The notes under the pieces are model-generated. The model saw only the letters and a list, made by a program, of their open reading frames with translations, made no database searches and had not been told where the DNA came from. The position numbers and the translations under genes are program-made. This document shows, one piece after another, positions 4,541-60,339 of a stretch of 64,000 nucleotides of DNA. This DNA is from Enterococcus mundtii (GTDB taxonomy: Bacteria; Bacillota; Bacilli; Lactobacillales; Enterococcaceae). Within the stretch, counting starts at the first letter, position 1; each line of letters starts with the position of its first letter. The stretch spans positions 2,071,501 to 2,135,500 of the forward strand of contig NZ_CP025473.1 in assembly GCF_003957375.1 (NCBI RefSeq), in the 5' to 3' direction.

Positions 4541-5380
4541 TTATTTTTTACCAAATGTTTCCCAGGCAGGTACGCTTGATCCTTTTGATGTTTCTTCAAT
4601 CACTTTTGCTGTTTCTTCCGTTTGATAGGTGTCAACGATTTTTTGATAGATTTCGTTATTTTCATCTTCTTTTCTTGCTACAATGATGTTGACATATGGT
4701 CTCGCGCTGTCATCGACAGGTTCTAAAAAGATGGCATCACTCGTTGGGTTCAATCCTGCATCGACTGCCACACCACTATTGATCACTGAAAGATCAACGT
4801 CATTCAATGCACGAGCTGTTTGTGAGGCATCCAGTTCAGAGATGTCTAGGTTTTTTGTATTTTCAGTGATATCTGAAGTAGTCGGCGTTTGGCCTTTCGC
4901 TGAATCAACTTTGATCAAACCAGCTGTTTGTAGCAATAGCAACGCCCGTCCACCATTTGTGACGTCATTAGGAATAGCTACTTTTGCGCCATCCTTGATA
5001 TCATCAATGGATTGGATCGTATTGGAATAGATCCCTAAGGGGGCATTCACTGTGTTTCCGATCGAGACTAGATCCGTTCCGTGTTCCGTATTGTAATTGT
5101 CTAAAAAGAATTGATGTTGAAAAGCATTGAGGTCGATCGAGCCATCCGCTAATGCAGCATTCGGTTGATTATAGTCGGTAAATTTCACGTATTCTAAGTC
5201 AATGTCTTCTTTTGCTAAACGTGCTTTGACATCATCCCAAACGTCAGTGTCCTCTCCAATGATCCCAAGTTTTACTGTCGTTTGTTTGTTTGTGTCTGTT
5301 TCGGCATTTCCTTGGCTACAGCCAGCCAACCAAATAAGTGCAACAAAAGCGAGTACTGTATAACGAATGAATTTTTTCAT
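4541..5380 (-). CDS. metQ: Methionine ABC transporter substrate-binding lipoprotein
   Basis: 279 aa. A lipoprotein signal peptide ends in LIWLAGC with Cys21 as lipidation site. The rest matches the NLPA/MetQ family: a KLGIIGEDTDVWDDV start of the mature domain, then LNAFQHQFFLDNYN and VAIPNDVTNGGRALLLL. It binds methionine outside the membrane and hands it to MetI. It lies 15 bases after metI in the T-box-controlled operon. Confidence 0.95.
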   Translation of the reverse strand: MKKFIRYTVLAFVALIWLAGCSQGNAETDTNKQTTVKLGIIGEDTDVWDDVKARLAKEDIDLEYVKFTDYNQPNAALADGSIDLNAFQHQFFLDNYNTEHGTDLVSIGNTVNAPLGIYSNTIQSIDDIKDGAKVAIPNDVTNGGRALLLLQTAGLIKVDSAKGQTPTTSDITENTKNLDISELDASQTARALNDVDLSVINSGVAVDAGLNPTSDAIFLEPVDDSARPYVNIIVARKEDENNEIYQKIVDTYQTEETAKVIEETSKGSSVPAWETFGKK

Positions 5381-5395
5381 GATGATTCCTCCAGT

Positions 5396-6076
5396 TTAAT
5401 GTGATATTTTTTTGATCAATAAGTTGCTGATCCATTGACTTAAAAAAACAAGAATCAAGATCAACAATGTCGCAACGATGGTCACGTCTGTTTGAAAACG
5501 ATTGTAGCCACGAGAAATAGCTAGGTTCCCTAATCCTCCTGCCCCAACCGCTCCTGCCATGGCAGTCAAACCAATGACATTGATGATCGTCAATGCAGAG
5601 ACACGAATGATTCCTGGCAAGCCTTCGATCAAATAGACTCTAAAAACGATCCCTAATGGACTGGTTCCCATTGATTCGGCCGCTTCAATTACTCCAGGAT
5701 CTACTTCTAACAACGCATTTTCCACTTGTCGAGCGAAAAATGGCACAACACCAAAGATCAAAGGGACTAAAGCAGCTTTCGCACCGATCGTAGTACCGAC
5801 TAAAAAGCGAGTTGTCAATGCCAGTAAAGAAAGTAAAATGATAAAGGGAATCGAGCGGACAACATTGATGACTTTGTCTAGCACCTCATAAAGCAAGCGA
5901 TTTTCAAGCAATCCTTGGGGCCGTGTCACAACCAATACGATCCCAAAACCAAGACCGATCGCGCCTCCGATCAACGCGGTCCAAAAAGACATATACAACG
6001 TTTGTTTCGTCGCTTCAATAAATTCATCGGGTATCAAATAGACATTGGGTAAGTAGGTTTCTAAGAAATGGGTCAT
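5396..6076 (-). CDS. metI: Methionine ABC transporter permease
   Basis: 226 aa with five to six membrane segments and the ABC permease coupling loop (EAAESMGTSPLGIVFRV). Typical MetI length. Its start is only one base after the metN stop, so the two are translationally coupled. Confidence 0.95.
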   Translation of the reverse strand: MTHFLETYLPNVYLIPDEFIEATKQTLYMSFWTALIGGAIGLGFGIVLVVTRPQGLLENRLLYEVLDKVINVVRSIPFIILLSLLALTTRFLVGTTIGAKAALVPLIFGVVPFFARQVENALLEVDPGVIEAAESMGTSPLGIVFRVYLIEGLPGIIRVSALTIINVIGLTAMAGAVGAGGLGNLAISRGYNRFQTDVTIVATLLILILVFLSQWISNLLIKKISH

Positions 6077-6077
6077 A

Positions 6078-7151
6078 TCAGCGTCCTCCTTGAATCACTT
6101 TCATTTCCTTACTTGCGCCATTTTTTTGTAAAATCGTTGCTTGTACACCGGATTCAATAAGGTAAGCCAGGGCTTTTTCTCGTTGATGGATCTCTCCTGA
6201 TAAAGTAACGATCAATCGTCCTAATGGGGTTTCTTGTAATAGTTCTACATTGCCGTATAAAATATTCGCACTGACTTGGTATTTGCTATAAAGTTGTGCG
6301 ATCAACGGTTCATTCGTTTGTGTGCCCACATAACTCAATTCCACTAACCATTTATTGGTCAACTGATCTGCAAAAGCACGATGCGAGCGAATCGTTTCTA
6401 ATGCTTGGTCAACGTGGGTGGCTGTTCGGATAAAATCTTGTGTCAAAACTTCTTTTGGTGCACTGAAAATCTGAACACTACTTCCCTGTTCGATCACTTC
6501 CCCGTTTTCCATCACAGCTACTTTGTTGCAAATTTCTTTAACGACTTGCATCTCATGTGTGATCAAAACGATCGTCAATCCTAATTGCTGGTTCAGTTTT
6601 TTCAATAAAGCTAAAATCTGATGGGTCGTTTTTGGATCTAAGGCACTCGTTGCCTCATCACAAAGTAATACTTGCGGATCACTGGCTAGTGCACGAGCGA
6701 TAGCAACTCTTTGCTTTTGTCCTCCTGAAAGTTGTTTTGGATAAGCAGTAGCTTTTTCTTCTAACCCGACTAATGTTAGAAGCTCATTAACTTTTTGACG
6801 ACGCTCCTGTTTCGATTTTTTCGTATATTTCAACGAGAAATCGACGTTGTCAAAAATCGTGCGACTTTCCATTAGGTGGAAATGTTGAAAAATCATCCCG
6901 ATCGATTTTCGTTCTTTTCGTAATTCTTTCGGGGATAGTTTTCCTAGCTCTGTTCCATTGATGATGACTTTGCCACTTGTTGGTTTTTGTAACAGGTTCA
7001 TGACACGAACCAGCGTACTTTTCCCAGCACCTGAATAACCTACGATCCCGTAAACATCCCCTTTAGCAATCGATAGATCCACCTGTTTCACTGCCTGGAT
7101 CGTCTTTTCTTTTTGTTGGAAAGAAACATTTATTGCTTGTAATTCAATCAT
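6078..7151 (-). CDS. metN: Methionine ABC transporter ATPase
   Basis: 357 aa. Walker A GYSGAGKST at 38-46, signature LSGGQ at 141-145, Walker B LLCDEATSA at 162-170. The C-terminal 90 residues form the NIL domain, which in MetN proteins binds methionine and shuts the transporter off. AAGGAGG precedes the ATG. First gene of metN-metI-metQ-amidohydrolase, behind two T-boxes in series. Confidence 0.96.
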   Translation of the reverse strand: MIELQAINVSFQQKEKTIQAVKQVDLSIAKGDVYGIVGYSGAGKSTLVRVMNLLQKPTSGKVIINGTELGKLSPKELRKERKSIGMIFQHFHLMESRTIFDNVDFSLKYTKKSKQERRQKVNELLTLVGLEEKATAYPKQLSGGQKQRVAIARALASDPQVLLCDEATSALDPKTTHQILALLKKLNQQLGLTIVLITHEMQVVKEICNKVAVMENGEVIEQGSSVQIFSAPKEVLTQDFIRTATHVDQALETIRSHRAFADQLTNKWLVELSYVGTQTNEPLIAQLYSKYQVSANILYGNVELLQETPLGRLIVTLSGEIHQREKALAYLIESGVQATILQKNGASKEMKVIQGGR

Positions 7152-7174
7152 TTTTACTCCTCCTTCAGTTTGAC

Positions 7175-7425
7175 GATAAAAAAGGCATCCTCAAGAAAAT
7201 GACTCATCACTTTCTTGAGGACGCCTTTTTGCGTGTTACCACCTCATGTTCAAGTTACACTTACATGTAACTCCTCTTCGAGTACAAACATACTCTAGCA
7301 AGTTAACGGTTGCGACCGTCACCGTCTCACAATATTGCTCGGGGTGAATTGCTCAATAGCCATTTTCCAAACATGCCGCCTTGCTTCTTCTCAGCTACCG
7401 AAGCTCTCTGTTAAAGGTTTTTGTA
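7175..7425 (-). promoter_or_regulatory. T-box riboswitch, Met specifier (second, gene-proximal)
   Basis: On the minus strand: AGAGAG box, specifier region GAAA-ATG-GC (ATG at 7363-7361), T-box core GGTGGTAACACG (plus 7232-7243), antiterminator partner GTCCTC, and a strong terminator with 19-base arms at 7180-7198 and 7211-7229. It lies just upstream of metN. Confidence 0.9.
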
Positions 7426-7449
7426 TTTGTACTTACTATTTCAACGCAA

Positions 7450-7715
7450 AAAATATAAAAAAAATCCTTTTATCAGCATAAATCTACTGATAAAAGGACG
7501 ACGTATCGTGGTACCACCTTTATTCGGAAGTTTCCTTCCCTTGATCCAACATCTCTTGACGAGAAATTGGTTGTCTGTTTTAACGGTCAGACATTTCCGA
7601 ACTTGCCTACTTATCGACAAGTTATTCTCCAAGGCCATTTTTCAACTTTTCTTACTTGACTCTTTCCACCAACCAGAGCCTCTCTTTGAAGTTTCCAAGT
7701 TTACTTTCCTTATCA
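7450..7715 (-). promoter_or_regulatory. T-box riboswitch, Met specifier (first, promoter-proximal)
   Basis: AGAGAGGCTCTGGTTGG apical part, specifier GAAAA-ATG-GC (ATG at 7638-7636) in nearly the same context as the second T-box, T-box core GGTGGTACCACG (plus 7507-7518), and a terminator with perfect 12-base arms TCCTTTTATCAG (7465-7476) and CTGATAAAAGGA (7487-7498) followed by a T-run. It lies in series upstream of the second T-box. Confidence 0.9.
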
Positions 7716-7742
7716 ACGAATCCATATTTTGTTGTTGAGAAC

Positions 7743-7771
7743 ACTTTATCTAAGTGAAAACAAAAAGTCAA
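7743..7771 (-). promoter_or_regulatory. Promoter of the met operon
   Basis: TTGACT (7771-7766), 17-base spacer, TAAAGT (7748-7743), just upstream of the first T-box. Confidence 0.65.
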
Positions 7772-7848
7772 GCAAGAAATTTAAAAAAATAAGCACTCAG
7801 TCGGTTGATAAATAAAAAAATCGTTGGTGGCACTGGATTTCCAGCCGC

Positions 7849-8523
7849 TTATTTTTTTCCTTTTTGTTTTTCTAACATCTCCAACACGATCAAAAGATCG
7901 GTACCTTCTGCTAAGATCGATAAATCTGCTTTTTCTCTTTCGGTATAAGCCCGATCAAAGCTTGAATCTGGAATCAGAACAACACCCATTCCTGCTCGTG
8001 ATGCGGAGGTCGCACCAACCAAAGAATCTTCCACTGCAAAGGCTTCTGACGCTGTCAATCCCGACCGCTCTAGCGCAGTTAGATAAGGAATTGGTGAAGG
8101 TTTATTTTCAGACACTTCATCCCCAAAGGTATATGTATGAAAATAAGGCTTCAAAGAAAATTGATCCAAAATATTGCTTGCTCGTTTTGTTACCGTCGTC
8201 GTTGCTAGGCCAAGAATGAGTTTTTGGTCATTCAATTCTTTCAATACTTCTTTTGCATGAGGTTTTAATTGGATAGCGCCACTATGCAGTTGTTGATAAA
8301 AATATTCTTCTCGTTTTTCGCGAACCTTTTGTACCATCTCCGGTGTTCCCGCCATTTTGATCAACAAATCATAGCTTTGTTTCCAATTTTTCCCACCCCA
8401 TGTATCAACGATTTCTTGAGGTATTTCGATGTCGAATTGCTTGAATCCCCATAGCCAACCGTCACGATAAGTTCTTTCTGTATCAACTAATAGTCCATCT
8501 AAGTCAAATATTGCACCCTTCAT
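7849..8523 (-). CDS. HAD-family phosphatase (beta-phosphoglucomutase-like)
   Basis: 224 aa from the ATG at 8523, chosen because AAAGGATC stands 8 bases before it; a longer frame to 8565 lacks a site. Motif I is IFDLDG with nucleophile Asp7 and Asp9, motif II TTTVTKR, motif III Lys in ENKPSP, motif IV VEDSLVGA. The cap domain follows motif I directly (subclass I). Such enzymes dephosphorylate or isomerise small sugar phosphates. The substrate is not identifiable. Confidence 0.88.
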   Translation of the reverse strand: MKGAIFDLDGLLVDTERTYRDGWLWGFKQFDIEIPQEIVDTWGGKNWKQSYDLLIKMAGTPEMVQKVREKREEYFYQQLHSGAIQLKPHAKEVLKELNDQKLILGLATTTVTKRASNILDQFSLKPYFHTYTFGDEVSENKPSPIPYLTALERSGLTASEAFAVEDSLVGATSASRAGMGVVLIPDSSFDRAYTEREKADLSILAEGTDLLIVLEMLEKQKGKK

Positions 8524-8636
8524 ATCCACTGATCCTTTCAAAAAACAATATCTGTAGTGTATCATGTTTTTTCATTCAAACCAATGGGATCTCAAGCATT
8601 TTTGTTATGAGTGGTAATCACACTCACCCTCCGTAC

Positions 8637-10109
8637 TCAATTATTCGGATTCATTTTAGTTATTTTATTTCTACGAATCTTTAATAATTGATTTGTAAAA
8701 TTAGCCCAATCGACCGCCCTTGGAGGAACTAACCAAATGATTTGGAACATTTCTCCAAAAGAACAAATTTCTTTATCTGTCAAGAGTAGATCTGTTTCAT
8801 CATCGGCCTTCGTTTGGTAAATGATATTCAAGTCAGAGATTTTTTGGATATTATTTTTGATCAACGCATTAAATTGTGGCCCAAAGGAAAAATCAATGCA
8901 AATACGCAGCGGTTTCAATTGTTGATCGATGGGTAATATATCCATCATCACTAACACATAATTAAAAAATAAAAATTCTTTTGCGAGCCAAATTTGCTTG
9001 TTCTTTTTTTGTTTTTTAATGTAATCTCTGCAAAACAAAAAATATTCTGGATACATTTCATAAAAATAAGTGACATCCAGGTTGTTATTGTCATCAATAT
9101 TTTCTTCTTTGAAATATTTGATCTTCAAATGCAAGACCGTCAGCTGTCTTCTGATTTCTTTTAGTTGATTTTCTGAAAGAATAAATGCTTGCCCAAGTTC
9201 TTCAAGAAATAAGTCATTCAAGACAAGTATTTCCTTTAGTTTCACTCCCTCAATAAGTTCCGGCTCATTGATTGCTCCTTCGACAACAAGATAAGCAAAA
9301 ATCTGTTGCGCTTCGCTAAATAGCTCTTTTTCCGTAGCAATCTTTGACTCTTTTTCAAGCCAAGAAAGTATGCTTCGAAAGAAATCATTTGTTTCTAACA
9401 TTTTTTTATTGAATGTCAATTGACTTTTTTTATTCTCAGACATTCGCCAACCTTGCTTTATTCGAATCAAGCTGACTGAAAGAAAATGTTGGAGTTTTGT
9501 TTCACTAAAACCTGTAAAAGAAGCAGCGAATTTCGGTTCAAGGAATCGAATCAATTCTTCTACTTGCTTTGTGATCTCTGTTGGATAAACCGAATAAGCC
9601 CGTCCGTATAATTTGGTGAAATAAAACGTCACCAATCCACGTACAGAGCCTTCTTCCCCACTTAGTAAGAATTTTTTTGTGACTGTAAGTTCTTTATCTG
9701 CTAATCTCGTACGCATGTCTTTTAGCTTTTGGTAGACGAGGGGATGACTGATATAATTCTTGATCGCATAGTCATTGACAGATTCGAACGTTTCAAAAAA
9801 TATTTCTTGTAGCATCAAAAAACCAAAGGAATGACGGACATACATTTCACCTAAAATTGTCGAATTCCCTCGACCACTCTCAATCAGTCGAACGTTATTT
9901 CCTTCGAAAAATAGTTGAAATTCATCCGTTAGCCCATATTCCAAAAAATCATGTGACAATTCTTCCATTGACTTATTCAGCAAAAAATAAGAGATATCCA
10001 ATTCTTCTAGCACTTTTTCATGATTTTCAATTAAAAGTGGCTTTGTTTCTAAATAACGTAGCAACTCTAACTTTCGTTGTGCTGGCTTATCTAAAAATAG
10101 TTTGAACAT
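8637..10109 (-). CDS. Mga-type transcriptional regulator of the WxL locus
   Basis: 490 aa. The start at 10109 (MFKLFLDKPAQRKLELL) is preferred because GAGG lies 9 bases upstream; a longer frame runs to 10142. The N-terminal third has winged-helix features of the Mga HTH (LELLRYLE, then YFLLNKSMEEL), and the remaining helical part resembles the PRD-like middle of Mga/AtxA proteins. In this family PTS phosphorylation of PRD His residues tunes DNA binding. Its first 23 bases overlap the end of the secreted-protein gene, so the pair is coupled. It probably activates the surface cluster upstream. Confidence 0.75.
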   Translation of the reverse strand: MFKLFLDKPAQRKLELLRYLETKPLLIENHEKVLEELDISYFLLNKSMEELSHDFLEYGLTDEFQLFFEGNNVRLIESGRGNSTILGEMYVRHSFGFLMLQEIFFETFESVNDYAIKNYISHPLVYQKLKDMRTRLADKELTVTKKFLLSGEEGSVRGLVTFYFTKLYGRAYSVYPTEITKQVEELIRFLEPKFAASFTGFSETKLQHFLSVSLIRIKQGWRMSENKKSQLTFNKKMLETNDFFRSILSWLEKESKIATEKELFSEAQQIFAYLVVEGAINEPELIEGVKLKEILVLNDLFLEELGQAFILSENQLKEIRRQLTVLHLKIKYFKEENIDDNNNLDVTYFYEMYPEYFLFCRDYIKKQKKNKQIWLAKEFLFFNYVLVMMDILPIDQQLKPLRICIDFSFGPQFNALIKNNIQKISDLNIIYQTKADDETDLLLTDKEICSFGEMFQIIWLVPPRAVDWANFTNQLLKIRRNKITKMNPNN

Positions 10110-52714: not shown

Positions 52715-54190
52715 TTAAAACAAAACAGTTGCTGGATCAATCAATTGCGCTTGAGATAAGCTGTTGTCACGACTGATCTCAAAATGCAGATGGCTGCCTG
52801 TACTATTACCAGTAGAACCGACAAACCCAATGATTTGTCCTTGTTCAACTTCATCATCAACTTTCACGACGTATTCTTGTTGATGAGCATAAAGCGCTGT
52901 TGTACCATCTTCATGTTCAATGGCAACATAATTTCCCCATGAAGGATGGAATTCTGCTTTGATCACAGTACCCGCTTTGCTAGCATAGATTGGCTCCCCT
53001 TGAGGTGCCGCAAAATCTAATCCACGGTGGAATTCACCACCACGAGGACCAAATGGGCTAGAAATCGTATAATTTCTTAATGGCACGATATATCCTTCTT
53101 TGTTCACTTCAGGTCCGGCAACTTCTTTGTCATATTGTTCTAAATCATACGTTTCGATCAGACCATTTAGTTTTTCGTTATATCTTGTATCTGTTGCGTA
53201 ACGGCCTGTTAAAAATTCTGTTGCTTCTTTATAAGTTTCTGCATTGGATTTCCAAGCACCTGAATAGAACTCACTATTTCCAGTCAAGCCTTCAGTCATT
53301 AATTTAGCATAGTCTTCAAGACTTTCTTCATAGTTGGCATATTTTCTGAATGTTGCTTGGATCGTATACAATGTACCATCACCAGCATCTTCTTGTGTGG
53401 CAAATGTCACACCATTACCCTCGTGTGTACCTTTGATCCCAAAAAGATTGTAGTTAGGCGCTTGCGCCAACTGGCTTTGTCCACTAGCTGATTCTAAAAT
53501 CGCTTGGGCGATCATCACTGATGCGTATAAATCATGTTCTTGCCCGATTTCTCGAGAAGATTCACCGATTTTGCGAATGAAGCTCTCAACTGATTCATCT
53601 TTTTCAAAATGGATCGATCCTTCAGCCGTTTCTTGACTTGATGGTACAAGATCTTGGATCGGTGTAGTTGCAGAAGGTTGACGTACCTCTTGAGCAACTG
53701 GCGCTGCAGGAGCAGGCGTTGGTGCCACAGGTGTAGCAGGTGGTGTCACTGGTTGTGTCGGCTGTGGTGTAGTTGGTTGTGTTTCTCCAGTAGAACCGCC
53801 AGTTGATGGTGGCGTTGGTTTTTGTGGCTGACTCGGCTGTGTTGGCTCTGTCGGCTTCGTCGGTTCTGTTGGTTTTGTCGGCTCCGTTGGTTTTGTTTCC
53901 TCCGGTGTGCTTGGCTCTGTCGGTTCTGAAGTATCAGGTGTGCTTGGTTCACTTGAATCACCAGTAGCCGGTGGCGTTGATTCTTCTGTACCATCTGTTG
54001 TTGTATCTGTTGTGTTATCTTCACCTGTGGTATCAGACGAATCCGTTGTTGTTTCTGTTTGGGCTTCCGCTGTTACTGGTTGGTCCGCAGAAAAAACTTG
54101 TTCATCTGCTAATACTTGTAAAGGCGTAGTTAATAACATTTGTGAAAGAAATACAAATGAAACTAATTTATACGTAGACTTTTTTTTCAA
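52715..54190 (-). CDS. Secreted cell-wall hydrolase: glucosaminidase plus M23 peptidase
   Basis: 491 aa. Signal peptide ending LQVLADE; Thr/Pro-rich spacer (about 30-165) with EPTKPT repeats; glucosaminidase-type domain (about 185-340, IGQEHDLYASVMIAQAILES and NLFGIKG); C-terminal M23 LytM domain (about 370-491) with Zn ligands in FHRGLDFA and SHLHFE. It would cut both glycan strands and peptide cross-bridges. AT-rich leader, single gene. Confidence 0.92.
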   Translation of the reverse strand: MKKKSTYKLVSFVFLSQMLLTTPLQVLADEQVFSADQPVTAEAQTETTTDSSDTTGEDNTTDTTTDGTEESTPPATGDSSEPSTPDTSEPTEPSTPEETKPTEPTKPTEPTKPTEPTQPSQPQKPTPPSTGGSTGETQPTTPQPTQPVTPPATPVAPTPAPAAPVAQEVRQPSATTPIQDLVPSSQETAEGSIHFEKDESVESFIRKIGESSREIGQEHDLYASVMIAQAILESASGQSQLAQAPNYNLFGIKGTHEGNGVTFATQEDAGDGTLYTIQATFRKYANYEESLEDYAKLMTEGLTGNSEFYSGAWKSNAETYKEATEFLTGRYATDTRYNEKLNGLIETYDLEQYDKEVAGPEVNKEGYIVPLRNYTISSPFGPRGGEFHRGLDFAAPQGEPIYASKAGTVIKAEFHPSWGNYVAIEHEDGTTALYAHQQEYVVKVDDEVEQGQIIGFVGSTGNSTGSHLHFEISRDNSLSQAQLIDPATVLF

Positions 54191-54511
54191 TTTTCTTACA
54201 TCCTTTTCTTTAGTTAATTTTAAGATACATGTTAGTTATGAATTTTTTGTTAAAAAAATAATAATTTTTATAAAGTAATAATAATTATTTATCTCGTATT
54301 TATGCTTCGTTCCACTACTAATAACAAACGTTAAGTGAAAACATCTAGCGAACACTGAGATAATACGTCAGACTTTTACTTTATTATAGTTCATTTTAAC
54401 AGGAATAAGAAGAGTTAAGCAGTCCATATTTTTTCATCATTAAGAGCAAAATTTGAACTTGACATTGATTTTCCCCCCATTTTTTTTACCGAGTAATATC
54501 AAATAATCTAT

Positions 54512-54553
54512 AAAAAAAGCCCTCCAAATATTGCTATTCAACTATTTGGAGGA
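54512..54553 (-). terminator. Terminator downstream of the ADP-ribosylglycohydrolase operon
   Basis: CCTCCAAATA and TATTTGGAGG arms, with a T-run on the minus strand. Confidence 0.65.
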
Positions 54554-54660
54554 CAGTCTCTGCTAAATTGATATCGAAAAAAAGATAGAATAACCAATCC
54601 TATTAGTGAAGTTTACTACAAATTAAATACAGTTTGATTATTCAGTTTTTTTACGTCCAG

Positions 54661-54995
54661 TCAAATCATTGTTTCCTTTTTTACTGCAACGATTAGTACA
54701 ACTACTACTAAGATACCTCCTAGAGCAATTCGCATATAAAAAAACAGATTTTCCCGTTTTAGGAAGAAATGATTCTCTTACGCCATTTTTCTTTGGAGCG
54801 GATCTCCTTGGCTATGGTTGATTAGGAAACTCTTTTTCTGGTGTGGCTTCGTTATTCACTTTGACTTTAACGATGCTTAAACAAACTTTTATATCATTGA
54901 TTTTTCCATATTCGGCGATGATCGTTCTATCTTTATAAATTAGACTTGGCAGCTGTGGGGCGTCGTTTTCACTTGTCAATCTGTCTTCAATAATT
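54661..54995 (-). pseudogene. Decayed LPxTG surface protein (C-terminal remnant)
   Basis: The minus strand reads IEDRLTSENDAPQLPSLIYK, then DRTIIAEYGKINDIKV, then NEATPEKEFPNQP, a stop, PRRSAPKKNGVRESF and LPKTGKSVFLY. A shift after the LPKTG motif leads to the membrane segment RIALGGILVVVVLIVAVKKE and a stop at 54661. So the sorting signal is intact in pieces but the gene is dead: one nonsense codon and one frameshift in a T-run. Confidence 0.65.
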
Positions 54996-55001
54996 CATCG
55001 T

Positions 55002-56573
55002 CTATTCAAAATAATATCTGTAAACTTTTTCTACAAACAGACGTATCTCTTTTTTATATGAGCATTTTTTTCTAACTTCATTTTCTATTTGCTCTACATC
55101 TAATTCTCCAAAAATATCTAAAGGTTTATTTCGAAGCATACGTATGGTTTCACTTAGTAAAGAGGTAAACTTTGCTAGAGTAATTCTTTGAGGTAAAGTA
55201 TTTTGTAGTTCGATTATTTGTTCTGGTGAAAGTTCCAAATCAAAGAGTTCACTTCTCCTTAACTCAGTGTCCTCATTTTTAAAGACAGGTTTTTGTAACT
55301 TACAGTAAAATGTTTGACTCTCTTCATTTTTTAATACAAAGACTTCTTTATTTTTCTGTGACCTTATAGGGTATTTATCTACAACTGTTAGATTGTCAAA
55401 AGGACCTAGCTTTACAGACTTTTTCTTTCTATCATTTCCATGTAGTTCTTTTATCAAATTTTTTGATTCAGAAAAATTCCACATATCTCTTCTTTCGGGA
55501 ATGGTTGCTTCCGGTATCGTTTTAGCCAACTGAGTGATATACTCAACATCTTGAACACCCAACCATTCTGATTTGATCCATCGTGTGCCATGGATTGCTC
55601 CTAATAAACCGCCTGTTGCTGCCGCATTTGTATCCGTGTCACTCCCTTCAAAAAAAGCGATCTCTAACAATCCATTCTGTGGATCTATAGAGAATTTAGA
55701 TACGATATAGATCGCTGTCAAACAAGTAACGACTCCTGAACCTTTCATTTTCGGATTATTGCAGTCTAATTTCGATAACGTCTCAGATGTTTGATCAAAT
55801 AATCCATTTGCTAACGCTTCTTTTATTAATGTTAATCCATCAAATAACTCTTCTCCCGTCTGTTCCCACAGTTTTTGATAATTTATACCTATAGAAAATG
55901 AAGCATTCAACCAATCATTGATATTATTAGGTACAGGAAACTTAGACCATTCTTCTTTTTTATTAATGAGATAGTCAACTAATTCCCCATATTTCATTTG
56001 TTTGTTGTTGGTAATCAGATACTCCGCAGCTTTTCCATAGACTAACGCACTCAAAATAGCTCTAGGATGTCCATGGGTAGATATTCCATTCAAAAATATT
56101 TTTTGATTCATTTCTTCACTACTTATATTTTTCTCATAAGCATGCGAAATGACCCTCATGACTACACCATTTCCACCCGCTTCAAAATAGGATTGGATGG
56201 CACTCTTATTCTGCTTCCACGGTGGTTTGCCATTCGACCATGAACGAGCAGCGCGCTTCGTAGCTCCTCCTCCTCCACGTTCATAAAGCAACCACGAAGG
56301 TAATTCGCTTCTTCCAAAATAAGATAGAAAATTACGATAGTTTAACGCCCTCGCAGTCGCTAGCGTCAGTTGGGTATCATCACTGTAACTTCCTTTTTTT
56401 ATGATTTCTTCTGTATAGGTGTGACCATAACCCGAACGTCTTACCCATTTTTGAAAATCTGTACTCCTAGCAGATTTATTTTTTGTTTGACTTCTTTCTT
56501 GTGGCCATCCCATGGCATCACCGATTGCAACCCCTAATAAAGATCCCAGATATTTATCTTCTATTGAGTTCAT
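55002..56573 (-). CDS. ADP-ribosylglycohydrolase (DraG family) with extra C-terminal domain
   Basis: 523 aa from the ATG at 56573, 10 bases past the DarT-like gene's stop and behind GGAGTGAGAGG. LGSLLGVAIGDAMGWPQE opens the fold; Mg2+/Mn2+ ligands lie in YSDDT (63-67) and GSDTDTNAAATGG (310-322). The family removes ADP-ribose from target molecules. The DraG core ends near residue 365. A 155-residue C-terminal region is unlike known domains. Paired with the ADP-ribosyltransferase upstream, it is the likely antidote that reverses its modification. Confidence 0.88.
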   Translation of the reverse strand: MNSIEDKYLGSLLGVAIGDAMGWPQERSQTKNKSARSTDFQKWVRRSGYGHTYTEEIIKKGSYSDDTQLTLATARALNYRNFLSYFGRSELPSWLLYERGGGGATKRAARSWSNGKPPWKQNKSAIQSYFEAGGNGVVMRVISHAYEKNISSEEMNQKIFLNGISTHGHPRAILSALVYGKAAEYLITNNKQMKYGELVDYLINKKEEWSKFPVPNNINDWLNASFSIGINYQKLWEQTGEELFDGLTLIKEALANGLFDQTSETLSKLDCNNPKMKGSGVVTCLTAIYIVSKFSIDPQNGLLEIAFFEGSDTDTNAAATGGLLGAIHGTRWIKSEWLGVQDVEYITQLAKTIPEATIPERRDMWNFSESKNLIKELHGNDRKKKSVKLGPFDNLTVVDKYPIRSQKNKEVFVLKNEESQTFYCKLQKPVFKNEDTELRRSELFDLELSPEQIIELQNTLPQRITLAKFTSLLSETIRMLRNKPLDIFGELDVEQIENEVRKKCSYKKEIRLFVEKVYRYYFE

Positions 56574-56583
56574 CCTCTCACTC

Positions 56584-57258
56584 CTATTCCATATAAAGAC
56601 TTTCTTCAGGGATATCACCGGCTCTTAATTTATTCGCCAAATTTTTGTCATACATATCTGCACAAGTAAAAATTTTAATTGTGGATAGATCACATTGAGC
56701 AATTTCAAGACGATTCAATTCTTTCTTCGCTTGTGCTTGGTCTCTAAATACAATTCCTTTAATATCTGTCTTTGAGATCGAATGTCTTATTAGCACCTCC
56801 GCTTGATTATCAGTAGGTGAGCAGATCAACATATTCTTTGTTCTGTTCAATTCCATCTTCCCTACTGATCTAGACTTATACAGACTCTTGAAACTCGATA
56901 GACCACTCCTTATGAGTTTCCCACTTTCTGTAGCAGCATTGCATGGACAAAAAAGAGTTTGATCATTAATGACACTAGGAGAAATCAACAAAATAGAGAA
57001 TTCTTTAAATAAATCAAGCCTATTCCTCTTCTCTAACTCATATAAATAATAGACATTAGGGTATTCGATTGAACAACAAATATAATCTTCTTTACCATCA
57101 ATTCTATTTAGATCATTTTTTTCCAGATCTTCTTTGATAAAATTGTTCGCAAGGATCTTACCATCTCTATCCAATATCTTGGGCAAATTTTTGGACTTAG
57201 TAAAATGGCACAAACGAGTAATTTTTCTCTCACTAATATATGATTCATACTCATTCAT
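56584..57258 (-). CDS. DarT-like (DUF4433) ADP-ribosyltransferase
   Basis: 224 aa. RLCHFTKSKNLPKIL at 15-29 is the NAD-binding HxT/NL motif, CNAATESGKL (about 106-115) is the family NAA segment, and NQAEVLIRHSI carries the predicted catalytic Glu154. DarT enzymes ADP-ribosylate thymidine in single-stranded DNA and act as toxins in phage defence. The start overlaps the helicase stop by 8 bases. The usual macrodomain partner DarG is absent; a DraG-type hydrolase follows instead. Confidence 0.82.
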   Translation of the reverse strand: MNEYESYISERKITRLCHFTKSKNLPKILDRDGKILANNFIKEDLEKNDLNRIDGKEDYICCSIEYPNVYYLYELEKRNRLDLFKEFSILLISPSVINDQTLFCPCNAATESGKLIRSGLSSFKSLYKSRSVGKMELNRTKNMLICSPTDNQAEVLIRHSISKTDIKGIVFRDQAQAKKELNRLEIAQCDLSTIKIFTCADMYDKNLANKLRAGDIPEESLYME

Positions 57259-58654
57259 AACCGTTCCTCAAATCATATAAACTTGTATCCTCTGGCAATA
57301 GTTCAGTTAATTTGTCCACATACGTAATTATTACTCCAGATTTTGCCCGCGTCACACTTACATAGATCAATTTGACAAATTTTACTAGCGCGTCTTGTTT
57401 GCTACCATATTTAGCTATTTCCTCTTCTGTAGGCATATATCGATCACTCATAAATGGTAAGAAAACTAAATCAAATTCTAATCCTTTAGCAGAATGATAA
57501 GTTCCGATGTGCAAGTTGTCAGTATTCTTCCATTTACCCATGTCTTTTTTTAATATTGTATGCTCAATTCCTTTTTCAGCAAAAATAGACGCTATTAAAT
57601 TGACATCTTCTCTCGTTTTGACTAGCACTGCTTTGGTTCTTGATACATCCGAGTTGTCTACTAAACCCATCAAAGATTCTATTTCCTCTTTTTTGTCTCT
57701 ACATTTTATTACAAGAGGATTTGGACCAACCACATCTGGAACAATGGAGTCGATTTTATCATTCTCATCAATTTCAAAAAAGGGTAATTCCGAAATTGCT
57801 TTCGCTAACTTTCCGACTCCTGATTTGTTTCGATAGTTTTTTTCCAATTTCCAAATCTTGACATTATTTAGTCCCGCAGAACGCCATGAAATCCTACTTC
57901 CATAAATTTGTTGATTCTCATCACCAAAGAAATTGATACTACCATCTTTCGATACTAGCATACTCAAAGACTTCAACATCATTGGCGAAAAGTCTTGACC
58001 TTCGTCAACAAGTATATATTTATATCGCTTTTCCGTATCATCTCTTTGCGCTTCTTCAAACACCGCTGTAGCTATACTATCCCAATCATATAAATAGCCT
58101 CTTTTATTCCTTAGATCTACATATTGTTGGTAGACTTCGTAAAAATAGATTCTGTTTTTCCTTAAAATCCGAGCATCCCGTCTTCCAGTTCGTTCAATTT
58201 TAATATACGTCTCTTGATCCATTATTCCCATTTTTTGTATCCATTCAATTTCATCGATAAAAATATCCATATGTCGTTCTAACGTATTCTCATCAGGATA
58301 TTTATTTTTCACTTTATCTAGCGCCTCTGCAATAAGTTTATTTTTTGATTGTAAGATGGCGTTTGTCTCCATTTTACCTCTTGAATTCAGATACCCTCGT
58401 GCCAACTTATGATAGTTTTGAATCAATAAATTTTTGGGAGAATCTTCTAATATAAACTCCATATATTTAATAAGTGTCCTATTATATGTAAGTATAAGGA
58501 CTATATCATCAGGGTAATTTTTTGCCATATTTACCGCCCTAACTAAAGCAATAGTTGTCTTTCCGCTTCCTGCCGTACCTAAAACAACAATATTATCTTC
58601 ATCAGAAAGATATAGTACATCCACTTGTTTTCCTTCAGGTTTTGGTAATCCCAT
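57251..58654 (-). CDS. Superfamily 1 (UvrD/Rep-like) helicase of the DarT operon
   Basis: 467 aa, GGAGG before the ATG. Walker A GTAGSGKTTI, Walker B LVDEGQDFS, motif III FGDENQQIYG, motif IV EKNYRNKSG, motif V TYHSAKGLEFD, motif VI YVSVTRAKSG. It is shorter than UvrD and lacks a clear 2B insertion or nuclease domain. First gene of the three-gene operon; it may sense or expose single-stranded DNA, the substrate of DarT. Confidence 0.88.
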   Translation of the reverse strand: MGLPKPEGKQVDVLYLSDEDNIVVLGTAGSGKTTIALVRAVNMAKNYPDDIVLILTYNRTLIKYMEFILEDSPKNLLIQNYHKLARGYLNSRGKMETNAILQSKNKLIAEALDKVKNKYPDENTLERHMDIFIDEIEWIQKMGIMDQETYIKIERTGRRDARILRKNRIYFYEVYQQYVDLRNKRGYLYDWDSIATAVFEEAQRDDTEKRYKYILVDEGQDFSPMMLKSLSMLVSKDGSINFFGDENQQIYGSRISWRSAGLNNVKIWKLEKNYRNKSGVGKLAKAISELPFFEIDENDKIDSIVPDVVGPNPLVIKCRDKKEEIESLMGLVDNSDVSRTKAVLVKTREDVNLIASIFAEKGIEHTILKKDMGKWKNTDNLHIGTYHSAKGLEFDLVFLPFMSDRYMPTEEEIAKYGSKQDALVKFVKLIYVSVTRAKSGVIITYVDKLTELLPEDTSLYDLRNGYE

Positions 58655-58734
58655 AAAATAACCTCCACTATTTTATTTATCCAGATATCTCCCCCACGAA
58701 GAAAAGCTCGTATAAAAAATTGTTGGTTTGTCAC
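58579..58734 (-). CDS. 51-aa upstream ORF overlapping the helicase start
   Basis: GTG at 58734 with AGGAGG 4 bases before it; the peptide starts MTNQQFFIRAFLRGG and ends at TAG 58579, about 25 codons into the helicase gene in another frame. The Shine-Dalgarno is stronger than that of many real genes. It could be a translational control element or a coding accident. Confidence 0.4.
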   Translation of the reverse strand: MTNQQFFIRAFLRGGDIWINKIVEVILWDYQNLKENKWMYYIFLMKIILLF

Positions 58735-58766
58735 GGAACCTCCTTTATCAATTATTTTATATTATC

Positions 58767-58772
58767 ATTATA
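58767..58772 (-). promoter_or_regulatory. Probable -10 box of the helicase-DarT operon
   Basis: TATAAT, about 35 bases before the upstream ORF. The -35 region is weak, as in many regulated promoters. Confidence 0.4.
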
Positions 58773-59067
58773 TACACTAAATCATTAAACCGTAAAGTTA
58801 TAATCTGTTTTTAAAATAACATTTATTTTCAAATAAGAAGAGAGGCTATGGAAAAATTATTTCACGACTTCTCTTAAGCAACATCATTTAACCAAAAATA
58901 AAAGAAACAACCTAAGCATATTTCATGCTTAAACCGATTCTCGATGAAATTATTTCAATTAAAACTAACCAAACATACTGTGTCCGGCAATATAACAAAC
59001 TGAAGAATTGTTATATTGCATAAGTGTTTATCTTTTTCAAGATGTTTATATAATGTGGTCGCCTTTT

Positions 59068-59279
59068 TTACTGACCTTTCCCCTCATTTTGAACTATTTC
59101 CATTTTGGAAATAGTTCGATCTTCTATCAATTCACCAGAATCAAATATATTTTTCAGATGTTTACTAATTGCCGGAATGCCAACATCAAAAAGCTTCGAA
59201 AACGTTTTTTGTGTTGCTCAAATGGTCTAAGCTTGACCACTTCTTCACTGTCTTCATACATCAAAAAATTGGATGTCAT
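59068..59279 (-). pseudogene. RhuM-family protein remnant
   Basis: The minus strand begins MTSNFLMYEDSEEVVKL, then breaks; another frame gives VGIPAISKHLKNIFDSGEL and IEDRTISKMEIVQNEGKGQ, closed by TAA at 59070-59068. TISKHLKNIF followed by GEL is typical of RhuM (COG3943). The gene is broken by a frameshift and a premature stop. RhuM genes are common cargo of defence islands and pathogenicity islands. Confidence 0.55.
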
Positions 59280-59500
59280 CCAACTTGATTTATTCTCCCT
59301 TCTTGATTCCATCTGTATTTTATTAAGATAGTTGCTAAAATTGTCACGATACTTGATTCATGTCATATGTAACTCGAATGAACATTGTTCTTACTTGGCA
59401 ACTCCCCAAAAATATTGTCTTCAACTGATTTATTTGTGTTATAACGAAAAATCGTGGCACTAATATATACGCCAAATATTGCGATAAAACGATTATGTAT

Positions 59501-59537
59501 AAAAAAACTAAGACTTCGTTCAAAGTCTTAGTTTTTT
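59501..59537. terminator. Bidirectional terminator after btuD
   Basis: AAAACTAAGACTT and AAGTCTTAGTTTT arms with A and T runs on both sides. Confidence 0.85.
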
Positions 59538-59562
59538 ACATATTAACTTTTATACTGTTTCT

Positions 59563-60339
59563 TTACCCTTCCCCCAACTTCTCCCAAATCTCACTCTGCT
59601 CCTGAAAATGCTTCACTAGATCCACATCAAAGATATCTTTGAGCAATTTTCTCGAAGCTGTTTCCAGAAATGGACCTTGCTTGATGACTTGGCCTGTTTT
59701 CATGAACAAGACTTGGTCGCTTAAAGAGAGGGCTAAACGGATGTCGTGGAAGACTCCGATGATTGTTTTGTCTTGGTTTTTGCCCCAGTCTTTTAAATAC
59801 CCGATGAGTTCGAGCTGGTGCTTGATATCGAGATGATTATTGGGTTCGTCTAGTAATAAGATATCTGGGTCTTGGGCTAATACTTTGGCTAGGAAGACGC
59901 GTTGCTTTTGACCACCGGAAAGTTGGTTGACTGGGTGGTCTTTCAGCTCCAACAAATTAGTGAGCGTCAGGCACTCCATGACTTTTTCGCGGTCTTCTGC
60001 TGTGGTGACTGACCAAAGTCCTTGTTTGATGTGCGTATAGCGGCCCATCATGACGGTTTCATAGACGGTGTAATCAAAGGCAATGGTTGAAAACTGGCTG
60101 AGTAAGGCAACTTTGCGTGCGGCTTCTTTGCGTTTCAGCGTGCGGACTTCTTTTCCATCGATTGTGATCGATCCTTCGTAGGAAAGGATGCCCGCAATTG
60201 ATTTCAATACGGTCGTCTTGCCACAGCCGTTAGGTCCTAAGATACAAAGGTTTTCGCCTTTGTTCAAGTCAAAGGAGACTTCTTTGATGATTTTTACTGA
60301 GCCATAGCCAGCTGTGACTTGCGATAGCTTCAACGTCAT
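59563..60339 (-). CDS. btuD: Cobalamin/corrinoid ABC transporter ATPase
   Basis: 258 aa from the ATG at 60339 with AAAGGAGG upstream. Walker A LGPNGCGKTT, signature LSGGQKQRVFL, Walker B ILLLDEPNNHLD; FecE/BtuD type. The B12 riboswitch at the operon start indicates corrinoid as substrate rather than iron-siderophore. Last gene of the operon. Confidence 0.92.
   Translation of the reverse strand: MTLKLSQVTAGYGSVKIIKEVSFDLNKGENLCILGPNGCGKTTVLKSIAGILSYEGSITIDGKEVRTLKRKEAARKVALLSQFSTIAFDYTVYETVMMGRYTHIKQGLWSVTTAEDREKVMECLTLTNLLELKDHPVNQLSGGQKQRVFLAKVLAQDPDILLLDEPNNHLDIKHQLELIGYLKDWGKNQDKTIIGVFHDIRLALSLSDQVLFMKTGQVIKQGPFLETASRKLLKDIFDVDLVKHFQEQSEIWEKLGEG

Follow-up and report, generated by a model that had tools for sequence, protein, structure and literature searches.

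The described systems closest to the locus considered here are DarTG1, which pairs the transferase DarT1 with a NADAR eraser, and DarTG2, which pairs DarT2 with the macrodomain protein DarG. Passages of a study of DarT1 (PMC11543638) describe this enzyme as guanine-specific, with C1 of the distal ribose joined to N2 of the base. They give R52, N104, E152, and M71 as its essential residues, assign the binding of a ribose to H17, and report that D54 is absent from the DarT2 loop and that N104 occupies the place of DarT2 H119. Here we describe a three-gene operon of Enterococcus mundtii that lies in a stretch of 64,000 nucleotides (contig NZ_CP025473.1, positions 2,071,501 to 2,135,500), called the window below. 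It encodes a superfamily 1 (SF1) helicase, a DarT-family transferase, and a hydrolase of the ARH/DraG fold.

We hold, with moderate confidence, that this trio is a self-contained defense or toxin-antitoxin cassette in which a guanine-marking DarT is joined by an ARH-fold antitoxin and by a helicase that serves DarT on phage DNA. A description of a helicase-DarT-ARH operon was not found in the literature searched; a paper by de Souza and Aravind (2012), to which the passages of PMC11543638 refer for DarT operons that carry other hydrolases, may have anticipated it in part.

A transferase with DarT1 residues

An earlier note, made from the sequence alone, had described three minus-strand genes with tight junctions. 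This layout was confirmed: the helicase and DarT genes overlap by 8 bases, and 10 bases separate the DarT stop codon from the likely hydrolase start, an ATG at 56573 that is preceded by AGGAG (by eye). The open reading frame (ORF) 55002-56618 was rejected as the hydrolase gene because it is over-long and begins at a GTG inside darT. Pfam names each protein as the note had, and above cut-off. Gene 1 matches UvrD-helicase (PF00580, 1.1e-20) and UvrD_C (5.2e-17), and gene 3 matches ADP_ribosyl_GH (PF03747, 1e-37). The 224-aa product of gene 2, whose match to a DarT profile the note had treated as decisive, matches PF14487 (3.1e-16; 60.2 bits vs. a cut-off of 22.5). Narrower models score this DarT weakly (15.6 of 150 bits for NCBIfam DarT, 7.1e-6 for PADLOC DarT), and the module may therefore be overlooked in annotation.

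The sole significant solved relative of the window's DarT by sequence is DarT1 of E. coli C7 (8baq, E 7.3e-13). Residues H18, R52, D54, N107, and E154 match DarT1 residues H17, R52, D54, N104, and E152, and all five are invariant in the 87 aligned DarTs (loci carry L numbers and genomes G numbers here; the broken L083 was excluded). The column of DarT2 H119 is Asn in 87 of 87, and the base-coordinating His of DarT2 is thus lacking. These residues are of the DarT1 type, and on that ground the thymidine-type DarT to which the earlier note had drawn its analogy was rejected. Guanine is likely to be the target rather than thymidine, given that the residues are those of a guanine-specific enzyme, and the eraser to compare is NADAR rather than the macrodomain DarG of DarT2.

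The substrate might also be RNA, because ADP-ribosylation of RNA guanosine exists and is reversed by NADARs, as passages of PMC11833690 describe. We regard this as highly improbable: passages of PMC11543638 report the characterization of DarT1 on single-stranded DNA, and the best matches of the helicase are DNA helicases of the UvrD group.

Recurrence of the trio and exchange of erasers

Recurrence beyond one lineage had been set beforehand as a point on which the earlier note's interpretation could fail, and it was found on a broad scale. A DarT-seeded scan of one genome per species (84,980 species) gave 86 stretches with relatives, and the trio occurs in the same order in 68 of the best 80 genome loci. 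The seed was an alignment of five DarTs, four of them from trios, so this 80-locus sample leans toward trios. The other 12 loci comprise six helicase-DarT-NADAR sets, three DarT-NADAR pairs, two DarTs alone, and L014, which lies at a contig edge. By record titles, the 68 trio loci span 12 phyla, and many are metagenome bins. They are distributed over Bacillota (18), Pseudomonadota (15), Actinomycetota (11), Cyanobacteriota (8), Bacteroidota (5), Chloroflexota (3), Candidatus Latescibacterota (2), and Myxococcota (2), with one each in Acidobacteriota, Planctomycetota, Fibrobacterota, and Gemmatimonadota.

The set rises to 88 loci or stretches once L003, the window, four plasmid loci, and two viral contigs are added. 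The same order is kept in 74 of these, which include the window, the two viral contigs, and plasmid records of Shinella (4.6 Mb and thus chromosome-like), Streptomyces, and Rhodococcus; the Rhizobium record holds a DarT-NADAR pair. The make-up that the earlier note had described, with a hydrolase in the antitoxin position, is supported. Split frames (L026 and L083) and cuts at contig ends (L022 and L041) are counted among the 74. The helicase is broken or cut in four of them (L022, L026, L083, and, at a contig edge, L041), the hydrolase in one (L022, at a contig end), and DarT in one (L083), which is too few cases for antitoxin logic to be argued from broken genes.

With 74 of 88 loci in the same order, the trio is more than a chance arrangement. 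Among 70 sets (the window, L022, L026, and L083 excluded; start codons picked by script), the helicase gene and darT overlap 59 times, 51 of them by exactly 4 bases, and darT overlaps the hydrolase gene in 47. Over 68 loci, the three proteins have correlated pairwise distances (r 0.87-0.89; 0 of 999 permutations as high), as expected if the three genes travel jointly, and shared host ancestry adds to the correlation. A hydrolase-seeded search matched two of 398 genomes of the window's phylum and three viral contigs, and all five matches adjoin a DarT or DarT-like gene. Neither the hydrolase nor DarT was matched in phage records. The trio is rare among near relatives of the window: the helicase is matched (E<=1e-40) in one of 15 genomes of the genus, and for DarT the 395 genomes of the order yield two matches, of which the one outside the window is DarT-NADAR.

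A conserved fourth gene was rejected. When 673 flank ORFs of 70 trio loci (up to 7 kb each) were clustered by blastp, no family appeared in more than seven of the 70 trio flanks, and only two clusters reached at least four loci (seven and four), on mixed strands and at mixed distances. One locus, L067 of Saccharothrix carnea, carries two adjacent helicase-DarT sets on opposite strands (845-2964 and 5571-9939), one of them with a hydrolase.

Gene 3 has the ARH fold with paired metal-binding acidic motifs. The acids of these motifs and an HGH motif are invariant in all 71 aligned hydrolases (L022, L067, and L086 excluded), and Pfam gives no NADAR match to gene 3. In six loci, by contrast, the gene behind a related helicase and DarT encodes a NADAR. 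Five of these loci are staphylococcal, two of them with identical DarTs, and one is from Streptococcus sanguinis; NADAR was called by PF22397 in L009, L010, L013, and L020 and by a profile built from these in L011 and L016. In a tree of DarTs (L083, L007, L022, L047, L068, and L081 excluded, as also from its topology test), the window's DarT falls in a group (support 100/94) with L014 and eight DarTs whose partner is NADAR, and it is 46% identical to the DarT of one staphylococcal/streptococcal NADAR locus.

Two unrelated erasers in the same position behind related DarTs suggest one lesion. The DraG-fold enzyme is probably an eraser of guanine-ADP-ribose, because NADAR replaces it in six loci and because the window's DarT clusters with NADAR-partnered DarTs. 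DarT1 forms its bond with an exocyclic amine that belongs to a guanidine-like unit, and DraG and ARH1 cleave ADP-ribosyl-guanidinium in arginine.

In structure, the hydrolase is best matched by protein-ADP-ribose hydrolases, and immunity pairs of ADP-ribosyltransferase and ARH exist (6drh, 8za7). Such matches could mean that DarT instead targets a protein and that the hydrolase reverses protein ADP-ribosylation in the manner of DraG and Tri1, for example at an arginine of the helicase or of a host factor. This is decidedly unlikely, since all DNA-base residues of DarT1 except M71 are invariant and since NADAR, a guanine eraser, takes the place of the hydrolase in six loci. Gene 3 is also far under the NCBIfam equivalog cut-offs for ADP-ribosylarginine hydrolases (DRAG and Tri1; 45.6 of 337 and 27.9 of 490 bits).

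Several arrangements around the erasers deserve mention. At least 29 of the 71 relatives of gene 3 match a glyoxalase/VOC profile (Pfam), by eye in the region of the C-terminal extension, and fusions of an ADP-ribosylglycohydrolase to a C-terminal glyoxalase/VOC-like domain are seen by eye in, for example, L004, L005, L006, and L057. A divergent gene lies just upstream of the helicase-DarT-NADAR set in L009, L013, and L016 of Staphylococcus, and the L016 copy encodes a NERD-domain protein (Pfam). In L108 (genome G646, 1-2058) and L158 (an IMG/VR contig, 5253-7431, with a terminase-like gene upstream by eye), a DarT or DarT-like gene is directly followed by the same hydrolase subfamily with no helicase, possibly an older two-gene form.

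The helicase and a proposed mechanism

The window's helicase carries a Walker A motif (GTAGSGKT), a Walker B motif (DEGQD), and C-terminal helicase motifs. Residues D217, E218, Q220, D221, R275, and R436 are invariant in 75 aligned rows, the window included, and the Walker A residues G31 and K32 are kept in at least 90% (L011, L022, L026, L041, L083, and L086 were left out of the alignment, and additionally L020, L082, L084, L085, and L087 out of the tree test). An AlphaFold 2 model (predicted local distance difference test score, pLDDT, 92.3) finds UvrD-DNA complexes as its top Foldseek matches, while the best NCBIfam UvrD/PcrA/Rep equivalog match reaches 72.7 of 965 bits, under the cut-off. 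Because the fold is similar but the equivalog cut-off is missed, gene 1 is taken as an SF1A relative and not UvrD itself. At 467 aa, compared with about 620-660 in the matched UvrD/PcrA chains, the protein appears to lack most of the 2B subdomain. Its best PADLOC matches are to Gabija GajB.

The helicase is found together with hydrolase and NADAR alike, and some pairs of each kind lack it; it therefore probably serves DarT and not a given eraser. Some precedent exists for a helicase close to DarT, because a DarTG2 pair of M. tuberculosis is linked to DnaB in passages of PMC12170906. That the helicase is unique to the trio was rejected, because 31 of the 398 genomes from the window's phylum contain a match to its profile (E<=1e-50), for the most part within longer frames. 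Genome G784 has a close helicase match with no DarT in the 4.4-kb stretch, and it is outside the 22 genomes of the phylum that have DarT. Also in this phylum, L163, L167-L169, and L178 encode proteins of ~820-845 aa that join a related SF1 helicase to a LexA/S24 peptidase-like tail (by eye), split into two frames in L178.

We infer the following mechanism, in which the guanine target, the removal of the mark by the hydrolase, all steps of the helicase, and the phage trigger are proposals. DarT would move ADP-ribose from NAD+ to N2 of guanine in single-stranded DNA, a mark that would block replication, and the ARH-fold hydrolase would act as antitoxin by clearing the mark from the cell's own DNA. 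The UvrD-like helicase would supply or recognize single-stranded phage DNA at forks or ends, allowing modification to outpace repair there. This is the most likely way for the trio to work; the marking and cleaning steps draw on residues and gene exchange, the helicase step on association. The helicase may expose or detect single-stranded DNA, as the earlier note had supposed, and the interpretation given in that note is overall partly supported.

The helicase could act on the repair side instead, giving the hydrolase or NADAR access to the lesion by unwinding or clearing ADP-ribosylated DNA. UvrD-type helicases are repair helicases, and proteins of this type are the best structural matches of a helicase that accompanies both kinds of eraser. 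We nonetheless consider such a role possible but on the unlikely side. Helicase gene and darT show the 4-base overlap more often (51 of the 70 sets, starts by script) than darT and the eraser gene do (23 of the 70), and because helicase-less pairs exist for both erasers, reversal does not seem to need the helicase.

Several observations weigh against a cassette in which the helicase serves a guanine-marking DarT and an ARH-fold enzyme erases the mark. The essential M71 of DarT1 is not kept: the column is Tyr in 61 and Phe in 14 of the 87 DarTs. Staphylococcal helicases from the NADAR loci are 32-35% identical to the window's and that of L020 is 27% identical, related helicases are found without DarT, and the helicase is not essential to the DarT-hydrolase pair, since L108 and L158 lack it. 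A single hydrolase/NADAR split is not rejected (approximately unbiased [AU] test, p 0.072 for DarT and 0.79 for the helicase, where the held-together tree scores higher); nesting of the NADAR sets within the hydrolase sets is thus not established. Given this result and helicase identities of 27-35%, we claim no direction for the exchange of erasers. In a comparison of flanks, 18 trio loci (110 proteins) matched 191 PADLOC families and 18 same-genome controls (108 proteins) matched 59. These figures count families and not genes, and the controls also match JetC, DrmMI, and type IIG, so we base no conclusion on the difference; the paired loci L080 and L082 with L151 and L152, and the second DarT-helicase set of L067, were left out.

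Published enzymology adds to the doubts. In passages of PMC11833690, the ARH-like protein SCO5809 and human hydrolases are inactive on guanosine-ADP-ribosylated RNA. Passages of PMC9967889 report a thymidine-DarT setting in which genomic DNA was not cleaned by ARH3, and those of PMC13036486 report that ARH-like proteins of S. coelicolor are inactive on uracil-ADP-ribose and human ARH3 weakly active. As far as the passages of these three sources show, none of the enzymes is a DarT-linked ARH.

Among the hydrolase families tested in PMC11833690, only NADARs reversed guanosine-RNA ADP-ribosylation according to its passages, and a widespread operon with an ARH-fold enzyme at the NADAR position predicts an exception to NADAR-only reversal on the guanosine base. 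Because the sets carry a conserved helicase, the trio also bears on how a DarT toxin is directed to invading DNA or activated by it. Were the proposed mechanism true, the ARH superfamily would gain a new chemistry, and helicase-directed base ADP-ribosylation would be a new principle, an outcome to which we give roughly even chances.

Chromosomal site and comparison with known systems

The trio block is mildly AT-rich (34.5% GC vs. 38.2% for the window), in keeping with the earlier note. No Rfam match was found at 54000-60000 of the window. Promoter-like sites are not in excess in the region (17 found vs. 23.7 expected from shuffles), and the terminator-like hairpin listed in the table below could insulate the trio from upstream transcription.

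Coordinates of the trio and neighboring features in the window
Feature	Position	Strand	Description	Basis
Gene 1	57251-58654	-	Compact SF1A (UvrD-like) helicase, 467 aa	ORF, Pfam
Gene 2	56584-57258	-	DarT1-like DNA ADP-ribosyltransferase, probable toxin, 224 aa	PF14487
Gene 3	55002-56573	-	ARH/DraG-fold ADP-ribosylhydrolase, probable eraser/antitoxin, 523 aa from ATG	PF03747
Gene 3 C-terminal extension	55002-55502	-	Small beta unit with GQT-like motif, then helices	Secondary structure
Promoter-like site before gene 1	58767-58796	-	TTTACG, 18 nt, TATAAT	Consensus scan
Terminator-like hairpin upstream of gene 1	58908-58936	-		Consensus scan
Remnant upstream	59046-59293 (approximate)	-	5' end of PADLOC PDC-S05 gene that is whole in G291	blastn, ORFs, PADLOC
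Remnant downstream	54846-54992	-	Matches repeats in 2587-aa predicted protein of G291	blastn, 77-80% identity

Two genomes of the same genus, G291 and G144, have flanks 91-96% identical to the window's in DNA and enclose about 30 and 22 kb of other cargo. Compared with these genomes (L129-L132), the window at 54842-59046 lacks a 20-30 kb block where the trio sits, and this block holds a giant predicted protein and, by eye, sugar-transport genes. The comparison upholds gene remnants on either side of the trio, as the earlier note had reported; the upstream remnant is presumably of the RhuM type that it named, and it matches the 5' end of a PADLOC PDC-S05 gene. The 2587-aa protein of G291 would be a surface protein.

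Beside the same transporter gene, G291 carries Wadjet JetA, JetB, JetC, and JetD with a PDC-S05 gene (PADLOC), its JetD split over two frames (L130, 3735-4424 and 4485-4997), and G144 carries a DNA methyltransferase and a DpdB-like protein. On these two comparisons the site looks like a defense hotspot by content. The presence of defense genes at the same site in two sister genomes supports the defense role that the earlier note had proposed, and the trio probably protects bacteria against phages.

A plain toxin-antitoxin addiction cassette, kept for the upkeep of an island or plasmid and without phage-specific action, would also account for a toxin that adjoins a putative antitoxin and for trios on plasmid records (the Shinella one chromosome-like) and viral contigs. 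We judge it unlikely in view of the known defense genes at this site in the two sister genomes, and because members of DarTG1 and DarTG2 can protect E. coli from phages, as passages of PMC12255303 report.

Among described systems, Gabija resembles the trio in having a compact UvrD-like helicase, GajB, in a defense operon, but its effector is another one, and no GajA model of PADLOC is matched by gene 2 or gene 3. DraT-DraG and the ARH immunity proteins (Tri1; Listeria Lmo0067) share the ARH fold, the metal motifs, and the pairing of transferase with hydrolase. Known members act on protein, whereas the window's hydrolase has a DNA-type DarT as partner, a C-terminal extension, and a helicase in its operon.

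With DarTG2 the trio shares the DarT fold, a presumed DNA-base target, and an eraser in the operon. It differs in having Asn at the base-coordinating His position and in giving no Pfam macrodomain match in genes 1 and 3, which flank darT. Eighteen of the 22 DarT genomes of the window's phylum look DarTG2-like (16 by motif, two by eye), and within the short stretches fetched from these 18 no helicase match appeared.

The likeness to DarTG1 is closest. The catalytic residues of the transferase match except for M71, an eraser gene adjoins darT, and six NADAR-bearing relatives also carry a related helicase. However, NADAR is replaced by an ARH/DraG-fold hydrolase in 74 loci, the window's among them, and the operon begins with an SF1 helicase gene. 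With no NADAR in its operon the trio is not a strict member of DarTG1, although it probably works like one. Taken as a whole, the explanation we prefer, and think reasonably probable, is that the trio is related to DarTG1 but carries a helicase and another kind of eraser.

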